From positions 1-64,000 of the forward strand of contig CALJZN010000017.1 of the NCBI GenBank assembly GCA_937983405.1: DNA of 64,000 bases. The letters are read 5' to 3'. The number at the start of each line of letters is the position of its first letter. Positions within the stretch are counted from its first letter, which is position 1. This DNA comes from an uncultured Paracoccaceae bacterium. GTDB taxonomy: Bacteria; Pseudomonadota; Alphaproteobacteria; Rhodobacterales; Rhodobacteraceae. This document shows positions 47,173 through 54,391 of the stretch, piece after piece. The translations under genes and the position numbers were made by a program. The notes below the pieces were generated by a model. It did no database searches. It had not been told where the DNA came from and saw only the letters and a program-made list of their open reading frames with translations.

Positions 47173-47425
47173 AGGTCTGCGGAACGGACGCGCGGCGAGG
47201 CGGACGCCGCGACCGCGCCGCGACGATCCGCGAGGGCGTGGCCGACCCGTGGCATCATCGCCGCCGCGATCCGGGCGCGGCCCGCCCGCCGCGGGCCGGC
47301 CTGCGGGCGAAGGCGCGGCCCGCGGGTCGCCGCCGGCCCTCGCTTGCGGCCGGCCCCGGATGCCGGCGCCGCGTGCGTGCAGGCTTTGCGGCCGCGCGCT
47401 GCGGGGCCGGGCGCCTTCGCGCCGG

Positions 47426-47443
47426 ATGTCATGCGATCGTCAT
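47426..47443 (+). promoter_or_regulatory. Pho box upstream of the pst remnant
   Basis: ATGTCAT-GCGA-TCGTCAT is a pair of 7-mers 11 bases apart, matching the CTGTCAT-N4-CTGTCAT PhoB site at 6 and 5 of 7 positions. A further perfect CTGTCAT is at 47459-47465. The site ends 83 bases before the pstS ATG. The gap 47173-47526 contains nothing else that I can identify. Confidence 0.6.
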
Positions 47444-47526
47444 CCTTCTGGGGCACGGCTGTCATCGGCCGCCGCTACCCGTAGGTGCTGCGCTGTCGGC
47501 CCGACTCAGGAGTGACAGGGGCTAGC

Positions 47527-48555
47527 ATGATTTCCATGAAAACGCCGGTTGCGGTCCAAGCCGCCGTCGCCCTCGCTGGGACGGCCGCGGCGCCCTGCGA
47601 CCGGTTCCGGGTCTTCGGCTTCTCGACCCTGTTCCCCTGCAGCCGGGCTGCGGCGGATGAGCTTGCCTACCGGCTCGGCGCTCCGGCGCCCATCGTGGAA
47701 GCGCTGGACACCGGCGGCGGCTTGCAGGCGTCCTGCCAGGGGTTCGGCGCGAGCCAGCCCGACATCACCGGCGCCGCGCGGGCGATGCCGAAGTCCGGGC
47801 GGGACCCCTGCGTGTCGAACGGCGCGATCCACATCACCGGGGCGCTGACCGGCTTTGACGGCCTGTCGATGGCGGTCTCGCGCTCGAACACCTCCGAGCG
47901 GGACATGCCCCCGGGAAAGATGGACAGGGCGCTCGGCGCGCAGGTGCGCGTGAACGGCCGGCGGGTCAACACCCCCCAGCGCAAGCGGTCGCGGATCAGC
48001 CCGCACGTCTCCGAGGTCGACATCGTCGTCATCGGCCTGCCGCCGGCCTCGGGCACCGGTGACGCGTGGGGCGAGACCGCCAGGCACAAGGGCTGCAGGC
48101 CGCTCGACGACGGCAAGTCCGGCGGCTTCGACGCCGAGCGGTTCAACGCGACCTTCGCGCGCCTGCGCCTCGAGGGCCCGTTCGGCGACGCCGGCGAGAA
48201 CGACAGCCTGATCGTGCAGCCGCCGGTCGCCGACCCGAAGGCCGCCGGCATCTTCGGCGGCTCGGTCGTCTGCGAGGACCCCGACCGGCTGAAGGGCGTC
48301 ACGCGGGACGGTCTCGAACCGAACCTCGGCACGGGCGCCGACGTTCCGCGCCCGCTCTGCCTCCACGTCAGGAACGCGCATTGCGGCGCGATCCCGCAGC
48401 TGCAAGCGATGCTCGAGGCATCCGTCTGGGACGAGGCGCTGGCGCGCGGCGGCAACCTGGCCGAGCGCGGCCTTGTGCCGCCGCCGGAGGCGGTGCGGAC
48501 CGGGATGCAGGCCGACGTGATCGGTGCCGTCCGGATGGGGCTGCCGACCGGCTGA
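47527..48555 (+). pseudogene. pstS: Phosphate-binding protein PstS, drifted but open
   Basis: The 342-residue frame follows PstS from end to end: a signal-like start (MKTPVAVQAAVALAGTAAA), FRVFGFSTLFPCS for the usual GSSTVFPF, DTGGGLQASCQGFG, PDITGAARAM, GENDSLIVQ, AGIFGGSV and ERGLVPPP at the end. No stop or frameshift is seen, but many conserved positions are replaced, for example SGTGDAWGE where an Arg is expected after SGT, and several out-of-place Cys residues. Because pstC, pstA and pstB behind it are clearly dead, I treat it as drifting. ATG at 47527 has ACAGGGG six bases upstream. A still-functional divergent binding protein is possible. Confidence 0.65.
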
Positions 48556-48640
48556 TCGCTGGTCACTGCGAAACCGTGCCGTCCGGATCCTCGGGGCGGC
48601 ACACCGACAGCGGCCTGGCCGCACCAACACGGGTCCGGTC

Positions 48641-49387
48641 GTGGGTACGGTTGCCTTCGCTCTCCTGATCGCCGCCTGGATCGCGGCCCATGCCCCGAAC
48701 CGCTGGGCCGCGGTCCGGATCCGGGCAAGCCTTGGGCGACCGCAGTGGGTGCCGGGCTTCCACGGGCGGTGCGCGCTGCTGGTGGTGCTCGTCCCGTCCT
48801 TCCTGCCGCTGATCGCGTGGCTGCCGTTCGAAACGCCGGTGATCGACGCGCTCGTCATGGGCGGCCGGCCCGAGGGCGTGCCGGACGGTCTGGGGTCGGG
48901 CGAGGTGCAGCTTGTCCTGTCCGGGATCCGGCAGATCGCCGGCGGTCGCATCTTCGGCACGCCCGAGCCGCGGAGGGTCGAGGCTGCGCAGCGCATGCTG
49001 GCGCTGCGCGAAACGTCCGAATGGCTCATGACCGGGCTCGTCGCCGCGCGGGCCGAGACGATGGTGAACGTGCTGTTCCTGGCCGCGATCCCCGGGAGGG
49101 TCGGCGGCATCCTGCTGGCCGTCAGCCGCACCATCGGCGAGACGATGATCGTCGCATTGGCCGAGGGGCTGGTCGCCAAGATGACGATCACCCCGCCCGT
49201 CAGCGTGACCACCGGGACCGTGCAGATCGTGGCGCGGCTGATCGGGGACAGCTTGTTCGACAGCCCCGGGACGCTTGCGGCCTTCGCGCTCGGCATGCTG
49301 CTGTTCGTGGTGACGCCGGGGGTCAACAGCTGCGCCCTGCGAAGCCTCGGTGCGTCCTCGCGAAATCTGCGGCCCGGGGTGGCCGGA
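48641..49387 (+). pseudogene. pstC: Phosphate permease PstC with a large internal deletion
   Basis: The frame from GTG 48641 begins with a helix (VGTVAFALLIAAWIA) and PGFHGRCALLVVLVPSFLPL, the PstC N-terminus, then VQLVLSGIRQIAGGRIF. At WLMTGLVAARAETMVNVLFL it jumps to the C-terminal ISRTIGET-type region (PGRVGGILLAVSRTIGETMI). About 249 codons remain of the 450 or more expected, so the central transmembrane core including most of the channel is missing in frame. The normal stop is also lost: the frame runs on into pstA without interruption. Such a product could not form a transporter. Confidence 0.8.
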
Positions 49388-50609
49388 ATGACCGAAGTCG
49401 GCATCCGGGGCAAGCGTCCGACCGACTGGGCTTTCGTCGATGTCGGCCGCGGGATCGGCCGGCGCCGGCCGTCGGACCTCCGGCTGAAGGCGATCGGGCT
49501 GGTGGCGAGCGGTTTCGCCTGCGCGATGTTCGCGACCCTGATCGGCTGGCTGCTGCGGCGGACGGGCCCGCAGGCCTTCCGCCGGACCCGGCCGGCCATC
49601 GACGTCGGCGACGAACCCGCCGTCCTGACCGCCGCCAACCTGCAGCGCGGCAACGCCAACGCGATCCGGGGCATCCTGCCGAACGGGGCGCGCTTTTCGG
49701 TGCGAAACCGGATCGTGGCCGATCCCTCGCCGCTCGGCCGGACGGTCACGCCGCAGCGGCCGGTCTCCGACCCCTGCCACCGGCTGCACCGGGGGCTGAT
49801 CGACCGCGAGACGCCCGCGGCGCTTTGCCGCCTGAAGGACCCCGGGATCGCGAACTTCGACCGGCCGGTTGCCCCGGGGCGCGTGTCGGGGCCGTTCAAC
49901 CGGAGGCTGCTCAGCAGCGCGGCCTCGCGCTTTCCCGGGCTTGCGGGGCTGCGCGGCGCCGTCGTGGCGCGGTTCCGGGCGCTGCTGACCTGCGTCCTGC
50001 CGTCCTTGCCCATCGGGATCGGCGCCGCGACCTACCTTGAGGGGATCGCGCCGAACAGCCGCACCTCGGCCCTGATCGAGGTGAGCCTCAACACCCTCGC
50101 CGCAGGCCCGCCGGTCCTGTTGGGCCTGCTTGCGCGCGCGGCGTCCTCGGACCGGTTCGGCTTGCCGTGCCGGGCCCCCCGGCATGGGCGGCATGACGCC
50201 GGCGCCGACGACCCTGCCCACCGTCATCGCCGCCAGCCGCGCCGCGCTTTGGTCGGTGCCGCGCCCGATCCGCGCGGCCGCCCTCGGGCCCGGGGCCTGG
50301 CGCCAGCCGGGCGTGTTCCGGCATGGTCTGCCCCCGGCGATGCCGGACTTCCTGACGGACACGATCGTCGGCCGCGCCCGGGCGCCGGGCAAGACCGCGC
50401 CGCGTCTCCCCGTCGGCACGAATGCCTTCGTGACCGCGGTGCCGGGACGCCCGTTCGACCCCTGCCCGGCGCTGCCTGCGCAGATCTTCATCCGCACCGG
50501 CAGGCCCGAGGGCAGCTTCGTCTGCCCTACCTCCGCCGCGATCCCCGTGCTGCCGATGGTCCGCGTCGCGATGCACGCGCGCGCCGTCTTCCTGCCCCAG
50601 CGCTGCTAG
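49388..50609 (+). pseudogene. pstA: Phosphate permease PstA, frameshifted
   Basis: From ATG 49388 (MTEVGIRGKRPTDWAFVDVG) the frame carries a first helix and a long periplasmic part. It reaches LPIGIGAATYLEGIAPNSRT and EVSLNTLAAGPPVLLGLL, the start of the permease core. Near 50170 the frame shifts and GMGGMTPAPTTLPTVIAASR, RAAALGPGAWRQ and TDTIVGRARAPGKTAP continue in another frame to a TAG at 50609. Each of these differs from the usual PstA text at many conserved residues (the ALGET element reads RAPGKT). It is non-functional by frameshift and by missense change. Confidence 0.82.
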
Positions 50610-50632
50610 CGGACGTGGTGCAGGGTTCCCAG

Positions 50633-51428
50633 ATGCCCAGCAAAGCCACCCCGGAGACCGCCGTGACGAGCCGGAGGAAGAAGATCGGCGCCCGCCGCGT
50701 GCAGGTCTACCCCGGCGCCACGCCCGCGCCGAACGAGGTCTTGGCGGACATCCCCGTCACGACCGTGACCGCCTTCATCGGTCCGTCGGGCTGCGGCAAA
50801 CCCGCCTTCCTGCGCCGCCTGAACCGGGTGAACGACACGATCGACATCTGCCGCCTGGAGGGCAACATCATCTCGATCGAGGGCCCGACATCTCCGACGC
50901 AAGGGTCGATCCGGTGCCTGCGCGTCCGCGTCGGGGGGGTGGTCGCGAAGCCCGATCCCTTCCCGAAGTCGGCCCGTGACAACGTCGCCGACGCGCCGCG
51001 CAGTCGCGGCCCGGCCCGCAGCAGACCCGATCTCGACAAGATCGTCGAACGCCCGCCGCGCCGCGCCGCGCCCTGGGGCAAGGCCAAGGGCCGGCCCGAT
51101 GCGCAGGGGACGGGGCCGTGGGGCGGCCGGCAGCAGCGGCTCTGCATCGCCCGCGCCTTGGCCACCTCGCCCGAGGTGCTTGCGATGGACAAGCCCTGCC
51201 CGGCGCTCGACCGTCGCGACGACCCGGATCGCAGGGCTGGTCGACGCGCTGCGCTCGCAGGTCTCGGCGGCGATCGTGGCGCCTTCGGTGCAGCAGACGG
51301 CGCGCATCGGCCACAAGACGACAGTCTTGCACCTCGGCAACCTTGTCGAGACCGGCGACACCGAACACATCTTCATCAACCCCAAGGATCCGCGGACCGA
51401 AAGCGACATCTCGGGCCGGATCGGCTGA
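50633..51428 (+). pseudogene. pstB: Phosphate-transport ATPase PstB with all catalytic motifs altered
   Basis: The alignment to PstB is unmistakable: FIGPSGCGK, RLNRVNDTIDICRLEG, KPDPFPKSARDNVA, RLCIARALATSPEVLAMD and ETGDTEHIFINPKDPRTES. Yet every catalytic motif is changed. Walker A ends GKP instead of GKS/T. The Q-loop Gln is gone (VVAKPDPFP for VFQKPNPFP). LSGGQ reads PWGGRQ. Walker B DEP reads DKP. The H-loop THSMQQ reads APSVQQ. A frameshift near 51210 separates the last 70 residues. It lies 23 bases after pstA and 10 before phoU, the normal pst order. Confidence 0.88.
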
Positions 51429-51438
51429 GGACCATCCG

Positions 51439-52155
51439 ATGACCAGCGACTCGCCCCATATCCAGAGCGTCTTTGACCGCGACCTCGAACGCATCCAGGC
51501 GCTTCTGATGCGCATGGGCGGGCTGGTCGAGGCCGCCATGTCCGATGCCGCCCGCGCGCTCGATCAGCGCGACGAGGAGCTGGCGCAGAAGGTCCGCGCC
51601 GCGGACGCCGAGGTGGACGCGCTCGAGCACCAGATCAACCAGGAATGCGCCCGCATCATCGCCCTGCGCGGCCCGAACGCGACCGACCTGCGCACGGTGC
51701 TGTCGGTGCTCAAGGTCGCCGGCAGTCTCGAGCGGATGGGCGACTATACCAAGAACGTCGCCAAGCGGGTGACGGTGCTGGCCGGGATGCCCCCCGTGGG
51801 CAACGCCGCAGGAACGCTGCGGCGGATGATGCGCACGGCCGAGCTGATGCTGAAGGACGCGCTCGACGCCTACATCCGCCGGGATGCCGAGATGGCCGCC
51901 CATGTCCGCCTTCAGGACGAGGAAGTGGACCAGATCTACAATACGCTCTTCCGCGCCTTCCTGACCCACATGATGGAGGATCCGCGCAGCATCACGCCCT
52001 TCATGCACCTGCACTTCGTTGCCAAGAACATCGAACGCATGGGCGACCACGCGACCAACATCGCCGAACAGGTGATCTATCTGGCCACGGGCGAGCTTCC
52101 GGCCGAACCGCGGCCGAAGGCCGACACCACCTCGCTGACGTCGGCGGACGGTTGA
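51439..52155 (+). CDS. phoU: Phosphate-signalling regulator PhoU
   Basis: This 238-residue protein has two three-helix PhoU repeats. The metal-binding E/DXXXD motifs are present in [15 protein letters not shown] and [16 protein letters not shown]. PhoU normally relays the state of PstSCAB to the PhoR kinase and limits phosphate uptake. Unlike the four genes before it, it has an intact frame and conserved residues throughout. ATG at 51439 follows GAGGACC and lies 10 bases after the pstB remnant. phoB and phoR are not in the window. With its transporter lost, its partner is unclear. Confidence 0.92.
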
Positions 52156-52261
52156 TGCGGGGCCGCCCCGGCAGGACGGCCCGGCCCCCGGGGCAAGGTT
52201 GCCGCCGCACCCGTTCTGTGGCACAGATCGGGGCGAAGCGAAGTCAGCCGCGAGAGGCCCC

Positions 52262-52915
52262 ATGACCGATTTCAGCGAGCGTCGGCGGATGATGGTGGAC
52301 ACCCAGATCCGCCCGTCCGACGTGACCCGCTATCCGGTGATCGCCGCCATGCTCGCCGTCCCGCGCGAGACCTATGTGCCCATGGCGCTGCGCGAGGCCG
52401 CTTACCTGGGCGAAAACCTGCCGCTGGCGCCCGGGCGGGTGCTTCTGGCCCCGCGGACACTGGCCAAGATGCTCGATCTGCTCGAGATCGGGCGCGGCGA
52501 TGTGGTGCTCGACGTGGGCTGCGGGCTTGGCTATTCCGCGGCGGTGATCGCGCGGTTGGCCGAGACCGTCATCGCGGTCGAGGAGGATGCGGCCCTGGCT
52601 GCCGAAGCCGAAGCGCTGCTGGCGGCCGAGGGTGTGGACAATGTGGCCGTGCTGTGCGCGCCGCTGGCCGAGGGCGCCCCGCGCCATGCCCCCTATGACG
52701 CGATCACCGTGCAGGGCGCGGCCGAGGTGGTGCCCGAGGCACTGCTCGACCAGCTCAAGGACGGGGGGCGCATCGGCTGCCTGTTCGAGGAGCACCGGCT
52801 TGGCGTCTGCCGCATCGGGGTGAAGTCGGCCGGTCGGGTGGCCTGGCGCTATGGCTTCGCCGCGGGGGCGCCGGTGCTGCCGGGTTTCGCGCGGCGGCCG
52901 GCGTTCGTGTTCTAG
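52262..52915 (+). CDS. Protein-L-isoaspartate O-methyltransferase family protein
   Basis: This 217-residue SAM methyltransferase contains [21 protein letters not shown] at the start, then [15 protein letters not shown] and the SAM loop [18 protein letters not shown] (near residue 82), with [29 protein letters not shown]. This is the short alphaproteobacterial Pcm-like type found beside tolC genes. Whether it repairs isoaspartyl proteins is not certain, because some residues of the Pcm substrate pocket differ in this group. ATG at 52262 has GAGAGG six bases upstream. Confidence 0.82.
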
Positions 52916-52978: not shown

Positions 52979-54391
52979 ATGGCCTGTGGATATCTCGCGC
53001 CCCTCGGGCGGATGGCCGCCGCGGTGGCGCTGGCGCTCGGCCTTGCTGCGCCGCCTGCGACGGCGCAGTCACTGACCGATGCCCTGGTGGCCGCCTATCG
53101 CAGCTCGAACCTGCTCGAGCAGAACCGCGCCCTGCTGCGCGCCGCCGACGAGGACGTGGCCCAGGCCGTCGCCACGCTGCGCCCGGTCATCACCTTTGTC
53201 GCCTCGGCCGAGCGGCGCTGGGTCACCAACGGCAGGCCCGCCACCGGCACCACCCCGGCGCGGCGCGTGACGGTCGAGGATCTGTCGGCGCAGATCGCGC
53301 TGGCGGCCGACCTGACGCTGTATGACTTCGGGCGCAGCCGGCTGGCGATCGAGGCGGCGAAGGAGACCGTTCTAGCCACCCGCGAGGGGTTGCGCGGCGT
53401 CGAGCAGCAGGTGCTGCTGAACGCGGTGTTCGCCTTCATGAATGTGCGCAACGCCACCGAATTCGTCGCGTTGCGGCGCAACAACGTCCGGCTGATCGAG
53501 CAGGAACTGCGCGCCGCCCGCGACCGCTTCGAGCTGGGCGAGGTCACCCGGACCGACGTGGCCATCGCCGAGGCGCGGCTGGCCGCCGCGCGGTCGAACC
53601 TTGCGGCCGCCGAGGGCGACCTCGCCGTGGCGCGCGAGGCCTACCGCGCCGCCACCGGCACCGACGCGGGCGCCCTGCGGGCCCCGCCCCGCCTGCCGCA
53701 GACCGCCGCCAGCCTGGCCGCGGCGCGCGAGATCGCGCTGCGCACCCATCCCACGATCCGGCAGGCGCAGCGGCAGGTGAGCGTTGCCGAACTGACCTCG
53801 CGGCGGGCCGAGGCGGGTTTCCGCGGCACGCTCAGCGCCGGCGCGCGCATCGGGCAGACCGACGACGGGCTGTCCAGCCAGAGCCTCTCGCTGACCTTCT
53901 CGCAGCCCATCTACACCGGCGGCCGCATCTCGTCGCTGCACCGCCAGTCGCTGGCGCGGCTCGACGCGGCGCGCGCCGCCCTGCAGCAGGCGGCGGTCGT
54001 GGTGGCGCGCGATGTCGGCCAGGCCTGGGCCGAGCTCGATGTCGCCCGCGCCCGGATCGAGGCGTCGAACCGCCAGATCGCGGCGGCGCAGACCGCCTAT
54101 GACGGCGTGCGCGAGGAGGCGACGCTGGGCGCGCGCACCACGCTCGACGTGCTGAACGCCGAGCAGGAGCTGCTCGACGCCCGCGCCAGCCGCATCGCGG
54201 CCGAGACCGCGCAATACATCGCCGTCTATCAGCTTCTGGCGGCCATGGGGCTGATGACGGTCGAGCATCTGGGCCTCGGTATCCCGACCTACGACCCCGA
54301 GGCCTATTACAATGCCGTGCGCGCGGCGCCGGCCACGACACCGCAGGGGCAGGCGCTGGACCGCGTGCTCTCGGCCATCGGGCGCAACTGA
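52979..54391 (+). CDS. tolC: TolC family outer-membrane channel protein
   Basis: This 470-residue protein has a signal peptide (cleavage near TAQS, about residue 30) and two TolC repeats of long alpha-helical coiled coil with beta segments. LSLTFSQPIYTGGRI is the typical YTGG strand turn of the second repeat, and LTLYDFGRSRLAIEAAKE that of the first. It forms the trimeric tunnel of type I secretion and multidrug efflux. ATG at 52979 has TGGAGG upstream. The Pcm-like gene 63 bases upstream is a common partner; no inner-membrane pump is adjacent. Confidence 0.9.
   Translation: MACGYLAPLGRMAAAVALALGLAAPPATAQSLTDALVAAYRSSNLLEQNRALLRAADEDVAQAVATLRPVITFVASAERRWVTNGRPATGTTPARRVTVEDLSAQIALAADLTLYDFGRSRLAIEAAKETVLATREGLRGVEQQVLLNAVFAFMNVRNATEFVALRRNNVRLIEQELRAARDRFELGEVTRTDVAIAEARLAAARSNLAAAEGDLAVAREAYRAATGTDAGALRAPPRLPQTAASLAAAREIALRTHPTIRQAQRQVSVAELTSRRAEAGFRGTLSAGARIGQTDDGLSSQSLSLTFSQPIYTGGRISSLHRQSLARLDAARAALQQAAVVVARDVGQAWAELDVARARIEASNRQIAAAQTAYDGVREEATLGARTTLDVLNAEQELLDARASRIAAETAQYIAVYQLLAAMGLMTVEHLGLGIPTYDPEAYYNAVRAAPATTPQGQALDRVLSAIGRN

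Follow-up and report, generated by a model that had tools for sequence, protein, structure and literature searches.

A dead inherited pstSCAB operon and a constrained phoU in a Rhodobacterales assembly that also holds a plasmid-type Pst operon

In the 64-kb window analysed here (positions 1 to 64,000 of contig C17 of G000, a Rhodobacterales assembly, GCA_937983405.1), the inherited pstSCAB genes for a phosphate transporter are dead while phoU, the gene that follows them, remains under purifying selection. Because phoU is constrained while pst is dead, its retention needs an explanation. We consider it somewhat better than an even guess that the inherited pstSCAB has been displaced by an acquired Pst, represented by a pstCAB-phoU operon on contig C35 of the same assembly, and that the resident PhoU has been kept for a job which the incoming PhoU does not fully take over. 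The assembly amounts to 2.735 Mb in 127 contigs and is 76.4% complete and 0.97% contaminated; the GC content of the window is 0.733.

Results

The inherited pstSCAB operon is dead

Two genomes of the same genus (G001 and G002, hereafter the congeners) served for comparison, and both keep the order pstSCAB-phoU-pcm-tolC in the same place. In the window, the four pst genes on the forward strand carry the damage that a preliminary description had read off the letters, and the comparison bore out each item. The pstS remnant (47527-48555) is still an open frame (47527-48546), drifted to 47-48% amino acid identity to G002; the pstC remnant (48647-49342, in two parts at 48647-49048 and 49043-49342) has lost its core, with about 212 codons deleted mid-gene near 49048 (G002 residues 136 to 349); the pstA remnant (49412-50618) is frameshifted near 50178-50188, running over 49412-50188 and then in another frame over 50178-50618, with a 20-codon gap relative to G002 and an early stop at 50607-50609; and the pstB remnant (50633-51428) is frameshifted near 51208-51213 (50633-51208, then 51213-51425 in another frame).

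Decay is equally evident at the level of single residues. With 67-76 other sequences per gene as reference, near-invariant residues are broken at 47 of 154 sites in PstB, 42 of 106 in PstA, 18 of 56 in PstS and, for the aligned part only, 8 of 45 in PstC, as against a median loss of 0 and a maximum of 9 (locus L014, PstA) in the other sequences. Substitutions at near-invariant sites of the PstB remnant comprise S57P, T58A, L162P, S163W, Q166R, E187K and H218P, residues that we take to be those of Walker A, the ABC signature, the Walker B glutamate and the switch histidine. Amino acid identity to G002 has fallen to 48% in pstS, 58% in pstC (over half its length), 57% in pstA and 59% in pstB, compared with 72-89% for the pst proteins of the two congeners. 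In pairwise comparison by NG86, dN/dS against G002 is 0.82 for pstS and 0.59 for pstB (0.34 and 0.17 between congeners); identity in the remnants hardly differs between the three codon positions (pstS: 0.70, 0.70, 0.64), and the window remnant sits on an end branch of 2.99 in the PstB tree. We also examined those first and second codon positions at which the two congeners agree with each other and with all of at least five (five to seven) outgroup loci; of these, 246 of 1399 (17.6%) have changed in pst vs. 9 of 268 (3.4%) in phoU (Fisher p 3e-11).

PstC and PstA of both congeners exceed curated family cut-offs, as does PstB of G002 (395.8 vs. 343.2 bits), and PstB of G001 aligns gap-free over 249 codons at 89%; PstS of both lies under the subfamily cut-off (156 and 121 vs. 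207) yet aligns at full length. Intact reading frames, the PstB ATPase motifs and the PstC core, all expected of a working transporter, are lacking in the window. The inherited pstSCAB is dead, and a divergent but working transporter is ruled out by the replaced PstB catalytic residues, the frameshifts and the pstC deletion.

Synteny with the congener contig G002:C2 starts at the dead pstS (~47500), and window genes to the left of this point (one a P-type ATPase by eye) have no syntenic partner there. Among the G002:C2 genes syntenic with our contig over 47.5-68 kb, those flagged by identity and frame are the four pst genes; one other gene has a single in-alignment stop.

phoU remains under purifying selection

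The stop codon of the pstB remnant ends at 51428 and the ATG of phoU (51439-52155, forward strand) starts at 51439, leaving ten bases between them. The gene is intact and encodes 238 amino acids, with 77% (G002) and 72% identity to the congeners, which share 86% with each other. Two PF01895 domains are recognized at 94.9 and 83.5 bits vs. a cut-off of 23.5, and the full-length model TIGR02135 scores 227.1 bits vs. 130.25. Near-invariant losses number 2 of 86, and at least four further sequences lose as many; a wider set of 106 distinct homologues gives 1 of 71. ERMGDY and ERMGDHATN, presumably the metal motifs of PhoU, are retained, in keeping with the conservation described earlier.

Constraint is also evident from the substitution pattern. 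dN/dS of phoU vs. the congeners is 0.26 (G002) and 0.30, with 0.18 between the congeners; identity by codon position (0.83, 0.89, 0.67) is not level, unlike that of the pst remnants; and in the PhoU tree the window sequence groups with the congeners at 100/100, on a branch (0.18) similar to that of G001 (0.16). The window phoU is under purifying selection, not relaxed, as the preliminary description had anticipated. A neutral phoU is ruled out by the 3.4% change at conserved sites and by one or two near-invariant losses, normal for the family.

The next two genes, named by eye, served as intact controls, both on the forward strand: pcm (52262-52915), the syntenic counterpart of the gene that follows phoU in the two congeners, and tolC (52979-54391), the counterpart of the one after that. 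Amino acid identity between window and G002 is 80% for pcm and 70% for tolC, vs. 79% and 81% between congeners.

A second Pst operon, of plasmid type, lies on contig C35

The preliminary description had presumed a PhoU left without its Pst and had proposed looking for a second pst operon, for pit and for phoR/phoB, a full pstSCAB-phoU elsewhere being what would undo the presumption. An operon close to this is present, and the presumption probably falls with it: contig C35 (11,185 bases) carries pstC, pstA, pstB and a phoU of its own, the contig beginning inside pstC so that pstS would lie beyond its end. Both pstC and pstB exceed curated cut-offs and both domains of the C35 PhoU are over cut-off; this PhoU is 36% identical to that of the window. 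On this ground we reject a phoU without any Pst in the genome; PhoU probably has one. In addition, phoR and phoB sit together on contig C40 (PhoR 313.5 bits, just under the cut-off of 334.2; PhoB over cut-off). A search of the assembly, 76% complete, for Pit (PF01384) gave no match.

The affinities of the C35 operon lie with plasmid-borne Pst. In 40 other genomes (24 of the same family, both congeners included), the best match of the C35 PstC is 43%. A plasmid collection yielded 142 records with a PstC match, 15 of them listed. Among the matches listed, the C35 PstC is 87.8% identical to its counterpart on pORIO3, a plasmid of Cereibacter azotoformans from Owen's River in California; identity to the PstC of Martelella, Agrobacterium, Sinorhizobium M14 (pSinA) and Rhizobium Q54 plasmids is 74-78%. 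We opened four plasmid neighbourhoods (H1, H2, H4, H5) and three of them have arsenic genes beside pst (aioBA or arsC, arsH, arsenite efflux); on pORIO3, ArsR/SmtB-family regulators adjoin pstSCAB-phoU-phoB. In trees, the C35 PstB falls with plasmid Pst (99/98) and the C35 PhoU with the PhoU of pORIO3 and Martelella (100/100), far from the window PhoU. Judged by sequence affinity, the C35 Pst is of the plasmid/arsenic-island type, not of the Rhodobacterales chromosomal type.

The remaining genes of the contig include matches, under the cut-offs, to models of ABC transporters of the 2-aminoethylphosphonate type, and a match to a ferredoxin-type reductase. The tetranucleotide profile of C35 correlates at 0.86-0.91 with four to five 11-kb window pieces, which correlate with each other at 0.87-0.93, and C35 likely belongs to this cell.

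Other Rhodobacterales have kept a resident phoU with a different Pst

We surveyed the surroundings of the nearest phoU relatives in Rhodobacterales, 80 loci in all, of which 76 were usable and four had too little upstream sequence. The canonical arrangement, pstSCAB-phoU-phoB, has the same genes and order as the operon of our window, pst being directly upstream of phoU in 69 of the 76 (68 with pstSCAB, one cut before pstS); in contrast to it, phoU in this genus is followed by pcm-tolC and not phoB, and the window pst is dead. Three loci (L056, L060, L074) have pstB-phoU-phoB without pstSCA upstream, and for L060 and L074 pstSCA occurs elsewhere in the genome, indicating a split operon.

The remaining four loci (L020, L027, L040, L043) read phoR-phoU-phoB without pst between, the phoR and phoU matches being 174-280 bases apart, and in all four genomes a pstC over cut-off lies elsewhere. 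They resemble the window in that the resident phoU has been kept and the Pst comes from a different operon elsewhere, and differ from it in that pst has been removed cleanly, whereas the window remnants are still readable. L043 belongs to Actibacterium Soudan_12_2 (G064), which carries a C35-type pstSCAB elsewhere (80%, 72% and 78% to C35 in pstC, pstA and pstB) beside an intact resident phoR-phoU-phoB. No second PhoU domain was found in this genome; a stretch of 18 residues, ERAGDQATPIAAEILFMT, at L166:9739-9792 (contig C11), 155 bases past the acquired pstB, resembles the C-terminus of a C35-type PhoU, scoring 28.5 bits vs. 26.6 for the best of 200 shuffles. We surmise from this likeness that it is probably the remnant of a lost acquired phoU. 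L020, L027 and L040 form one clade in the PhoU tree (99/97), and their genomes have a third kind of Pst elsewhere, with no phoU found beside it. Perhaps, then, the resident PhoU has outlived the resident Pst in three independent lineages.

By PstS identity to G002 the loci fall into two groups. Eight of them, the congener included, are at 64-72%, and the 60 others in which pstS was matched are at 36-50%; PhoU identity to G002 ranges over 62-86% across all 80 loci. Two pstS groups with similar PhoU are a further sign of transport genes exchanged around a stable phoU. The two kinds of pstS set L014, L018, L030, L044, L046, L081 and L093 against the other loci.

A predicted Pho box, a long open frame and drift towards GC

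The Pho box consists of CTGTCAT-like 7-base repeats at 11-base spacing upstream of pstS. A predicted box is retained on the forward strand at 47426-47465, 101 bases before the dead pstS, with repeats ATGTCAT, TCGTCAT, CTGGGGC and CTGTCAT at 11-base spacing and spacers GCGA, CCTT and ACGG; it is the sole match with at most three mismatches to CTGTCATNNNNCTGTCAT in the 64 kb, with 1.29 expected anywhere on both strands. Of 12 comparators (the congeners and ten loci), 10 score 10/14 or better, with the best match lying between -94 and -114; the other two are L016, with 9/14 at -180 (measured from a match starting at residue 24), and G001, with 7/14 and an uncertain start. Judged by motif and position, a PhoB-type promoter seems to have survived 4 kb ahead of phoU, separated from it by the four dead genes. 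A scan for promoter and terminator consensus sequences over 47300-52300 found none, and an Rfam scan of the window gave no matches.

A stop-free frame of 972 codons (48524-51442, forward strand) spans the pstC, pstA and pstB remnants, its terminal TGA overlapping the ATG of phoU as ATGA. At 73% GC the length of a frame by itself says little about whether it is a gene: 19 open frames in the window reach at least 700 codons, and many of them overlap a frame on the other strand. The 972-codon frame is probably a by-product of high GC. At the conserved first and second positions, dead pst shows 172 changes from A/T to G/C at 656 sites vs. 40 in the reverse direction at 743 (Fisher p 1e-28), giving an equilibrium GC of 0.83 (0.78-0.88), or 0.78 with looser polarisation. 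phoU shows no such GC-ward excess (4/126 and 3/142), and neither do pcm and tolC at their second positions (0.056, 0.066; looser polarisation). The 1232 aligned codons of the remnants contain one stop, where 4.8 are expected under the strict spectrum and 6.9 or 8.4 under looser ones; this scarcity is largely explained by the drift of the dead genes towards GC. We have set aside the long frame and the stop scarcity as strong evidence of selection, since early estimates of 8.4 expected stops (P of none ~0.0002) and 6.9 (17% change) gave way to 4.8 with the best polarisation, under which the P of at most one stop is 0.047.

This drift runs against the AT-ward bias that mutation is reported to have in bacteria, high-GC ones included; pseudogenes are reported to be under the same base-composition pressure as the genome (PMC2936535). 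The pst remnant is consistent with a force that moves the whole genome towards GC.

Arsenite-oxidase pieces in the same assembly

G000 also contains an arsenite-oxidase large subunit (TIGR02693; 481.5 vs. 359.05 bits with the pieces joined), found above cut-off in neither congener and split over two contig ends (L190:11417-12841 on C70 and L191:12598-12930 on C55). Unlike in arsenic islands, the pst and aio genes of G000 sit on different contigs. Some 75 residues of the C70 aioA piece are out of frame, and C70 also bears an IS5-type transposase and dnaE; including the out-of-frame stretch, 23 of 193 invariant residues are changed (7-35 of 370-398 in references), while outside it 24 of 468 sites are changed, within the reference range of 1.6-6.6%. 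C55 carries an AioR-like regulator in two pieces in different frames. Contig C81 (L192) has a gene distantly related to that of the arsenite-oxidase large subunit, its product 27% identical to AioA, with a small-subunit-like frame.

Discussion

We surmise that an ancestor of this bacterium gained a foreign Pst operon of plasmid type, a kind often found beside arsenic genes, of which the C35 pstCAB-phoU would be the present form; that, as a consequence, the inherited transporter genes lost function and came to drift without constraint; and that the operon-terminal inherited phoU stayed under purifying selection, with a PhoB-type promoter 4 kb upstream that may still drive it. The resident PhoU would then restrain the acquired Pst and/or pass its state to the resident PhoR-PhoB, with the incoming PhoU being partial or redundant, as suggested by its loss in Actibacterium. 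In E. coli, C. crescentus and pneumococcus, inactivating phoU is reported to do harm as long as the Pst pump is working, and the harm is relieved by inactivating that pump (PMC4913102). Since growth defects of phoU are reversed by Pst loss, a kept phoU points to an active Pst, the candidate for which is the C35 operon. Of the two roles put forward in the preliminary description, one alongside another phosphate transporter and one directly at PhoR, the first has thus been sharpened, the different transporter probably being the acquired Pst, while the PhoR half may fail.

Several observations weigh against this scenario. 1) A search of the assembly, 76% complete, gave no PstS-type protein (PF12849), the C35 pstS lying, if present, past the contig end. 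2) G000 retains both phoU genes, and the resident one is not merely the sole survivor. 3) C35 might be misbinned, as DNA of G002 fits its tetranucleotide profile equally well (0.89) and its 11 kb offer no link to any congener gene. 4) No arsenic gene was recognised by inspection on the 11-kb C35, and we do not claim arsenic-island membership for it. 5) The phoU branch has somewhat more amino acid change than those of the congeners, its changed codons being synonymous/nonsynonymous 24/21 vs. 17/8 and 15/4; tolC is likewise elevated (46/57 vs. 36/14 and 50/11). 6) As for PhoR, the PhoU of C. crescentus and S. meliloti is reported to restrain transport by Pst, possibly with no action at PhoR (PMC11208175), and the control of a two-component system by pneumococcal PhoU2 depended on its own Pst2 (PMC4913102).

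Among other explanations, the C35 PhoU may partner the acquired Pst while the resident PhoU serves another resident system, a low-affinity transporter or a PhoR function, missed in the incomplete assembly. The C35 phoU is indeed intact with both PhoU domains over cut-off, about a quarter of the genome is missing, and a further PhoU-domain protein of the congeners (~580 residues) was not found in G000. In Actibacterium, however, the acquired Pst stands without a phoU save for the probable stub, and the resident PhoU, the only one found, apparently suffices; the assembly, moreover, yielded no Pit. We regard this explanation as unlikely, with a real chance of holding nonetheless.

It is quite unlikely, in our judgement, that the role of PhoU needs no Pst at all, be it direct control of PhoR or a part in metal or polyphosphate metabolism, with C35 foreign or irrelevant. 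Such a role would accommodate a phoU constrained while its own Pst is dead and the unproven ownership of C35, and PhoU is reported to be essential in C. crescentus (PMC11208175). Set against this, all four genomes searched that have a pst-less phoU locus have a pstC over cut-off elsewhere; PstSCAB was found in 99.4% of PhoU-bearing genomes in a survey of 926 genomes (PMC13170248); and the reversal of phoU growth defects by Pst loss also makes it less likely that loss of phoU is harmful even without Pst, as had been suggested at the outset.

We doubt still more that the open frames between Pho box and phoU have been selected against polarity of stops, the dead genes being a translated leader. 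The Pho box at -101 of the dead pstS, the single stop against the several expected and the end of the long frame on the phoU start as ATGA would all fit. The GC drift explains most of the stop scarcity, which reaches only P 0.047 with the strictest spectrum, long frames abound in the window, many of them in opposite-strand overlap, and by our reasoning the chance of ending on ATGA is about 1/3, all of which speaks against such selection.

Plain lag, with phoU simply the last gene to decay, fits its promoter-distal position and the generally known uneven decay of pseudogene series, and is very improbable given the contrast between pst and phoU at conserved sites and the family-normal near-invariant losses of PhoU, which refute a neutral phoU over the same time and leave room only for a very late release of constraint.

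The displacement of an inherited Pst by an acquired one, as favoured here, has parts that are already known in kind: two Pst-PhoU pairs, island Pst and dead transporters. The C35 pstCAB-phoU resembles the arsenic-island pst1, grouping with the Pst of pSinA, Martelella and pORIO3; nearly all strains with an island pst1 retain a second, vertically inherited pst2, according to Li et al. 2013 (PMC3834237), whereas in G000 the inherited pst is dead. In Streptococcus pneumoniae, PhoU1 is reported to control only Pst1, and PhoU2 to control Pst2 and the two-component system (PMC4913102), so that two unlike PhoUs are tied to two Pst, with 34% identity there and 36% in G000. Both pneumococcal Pst are intact, while one is dead in G000, and the division of work demonstrated in that species is one that we infer here. 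For a dead inherited Pst with a living PhoU and an acquired Pst, and for the mirror case of Actibacterium, no report was found in a literature search of partial coverage.

We also put forward, tentatively and with a little less than even confidence, a broader proposal, in which the resident PhoU is a durable partner in Rhodobacterales that adopts a foreign Pst, after which the resident transporter dies and the incoming phoU is later discarded, the window representing an early stage and Actibacterium Soudan_12_2 a late one. The partnership of PhoU would then be fixed by the signalling side and would work with a Pst that has not co-evolved with it. As part of this proposal, the dead operon would show unconstrained DNA moving towards ~83% GC in a 73% GC genome, by a force without coding selection. 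The pst remnant offers a long-dead stretch in a 73% GC bacterium drifting GC-ward, to be set against the AT-biased mutation reported for bacteria (PMC2936535). No component of phosphate sensing is less well understood than PhoU, and opinions differ on whether its main task is to restrain Pst or to signal to PhoR. Lineages in which the transporter has been exchanged and the resident PhoU kept, namely that of the window, Actibacterium and the clade of L020, L027 and L040, separate the partners and make this question testable.

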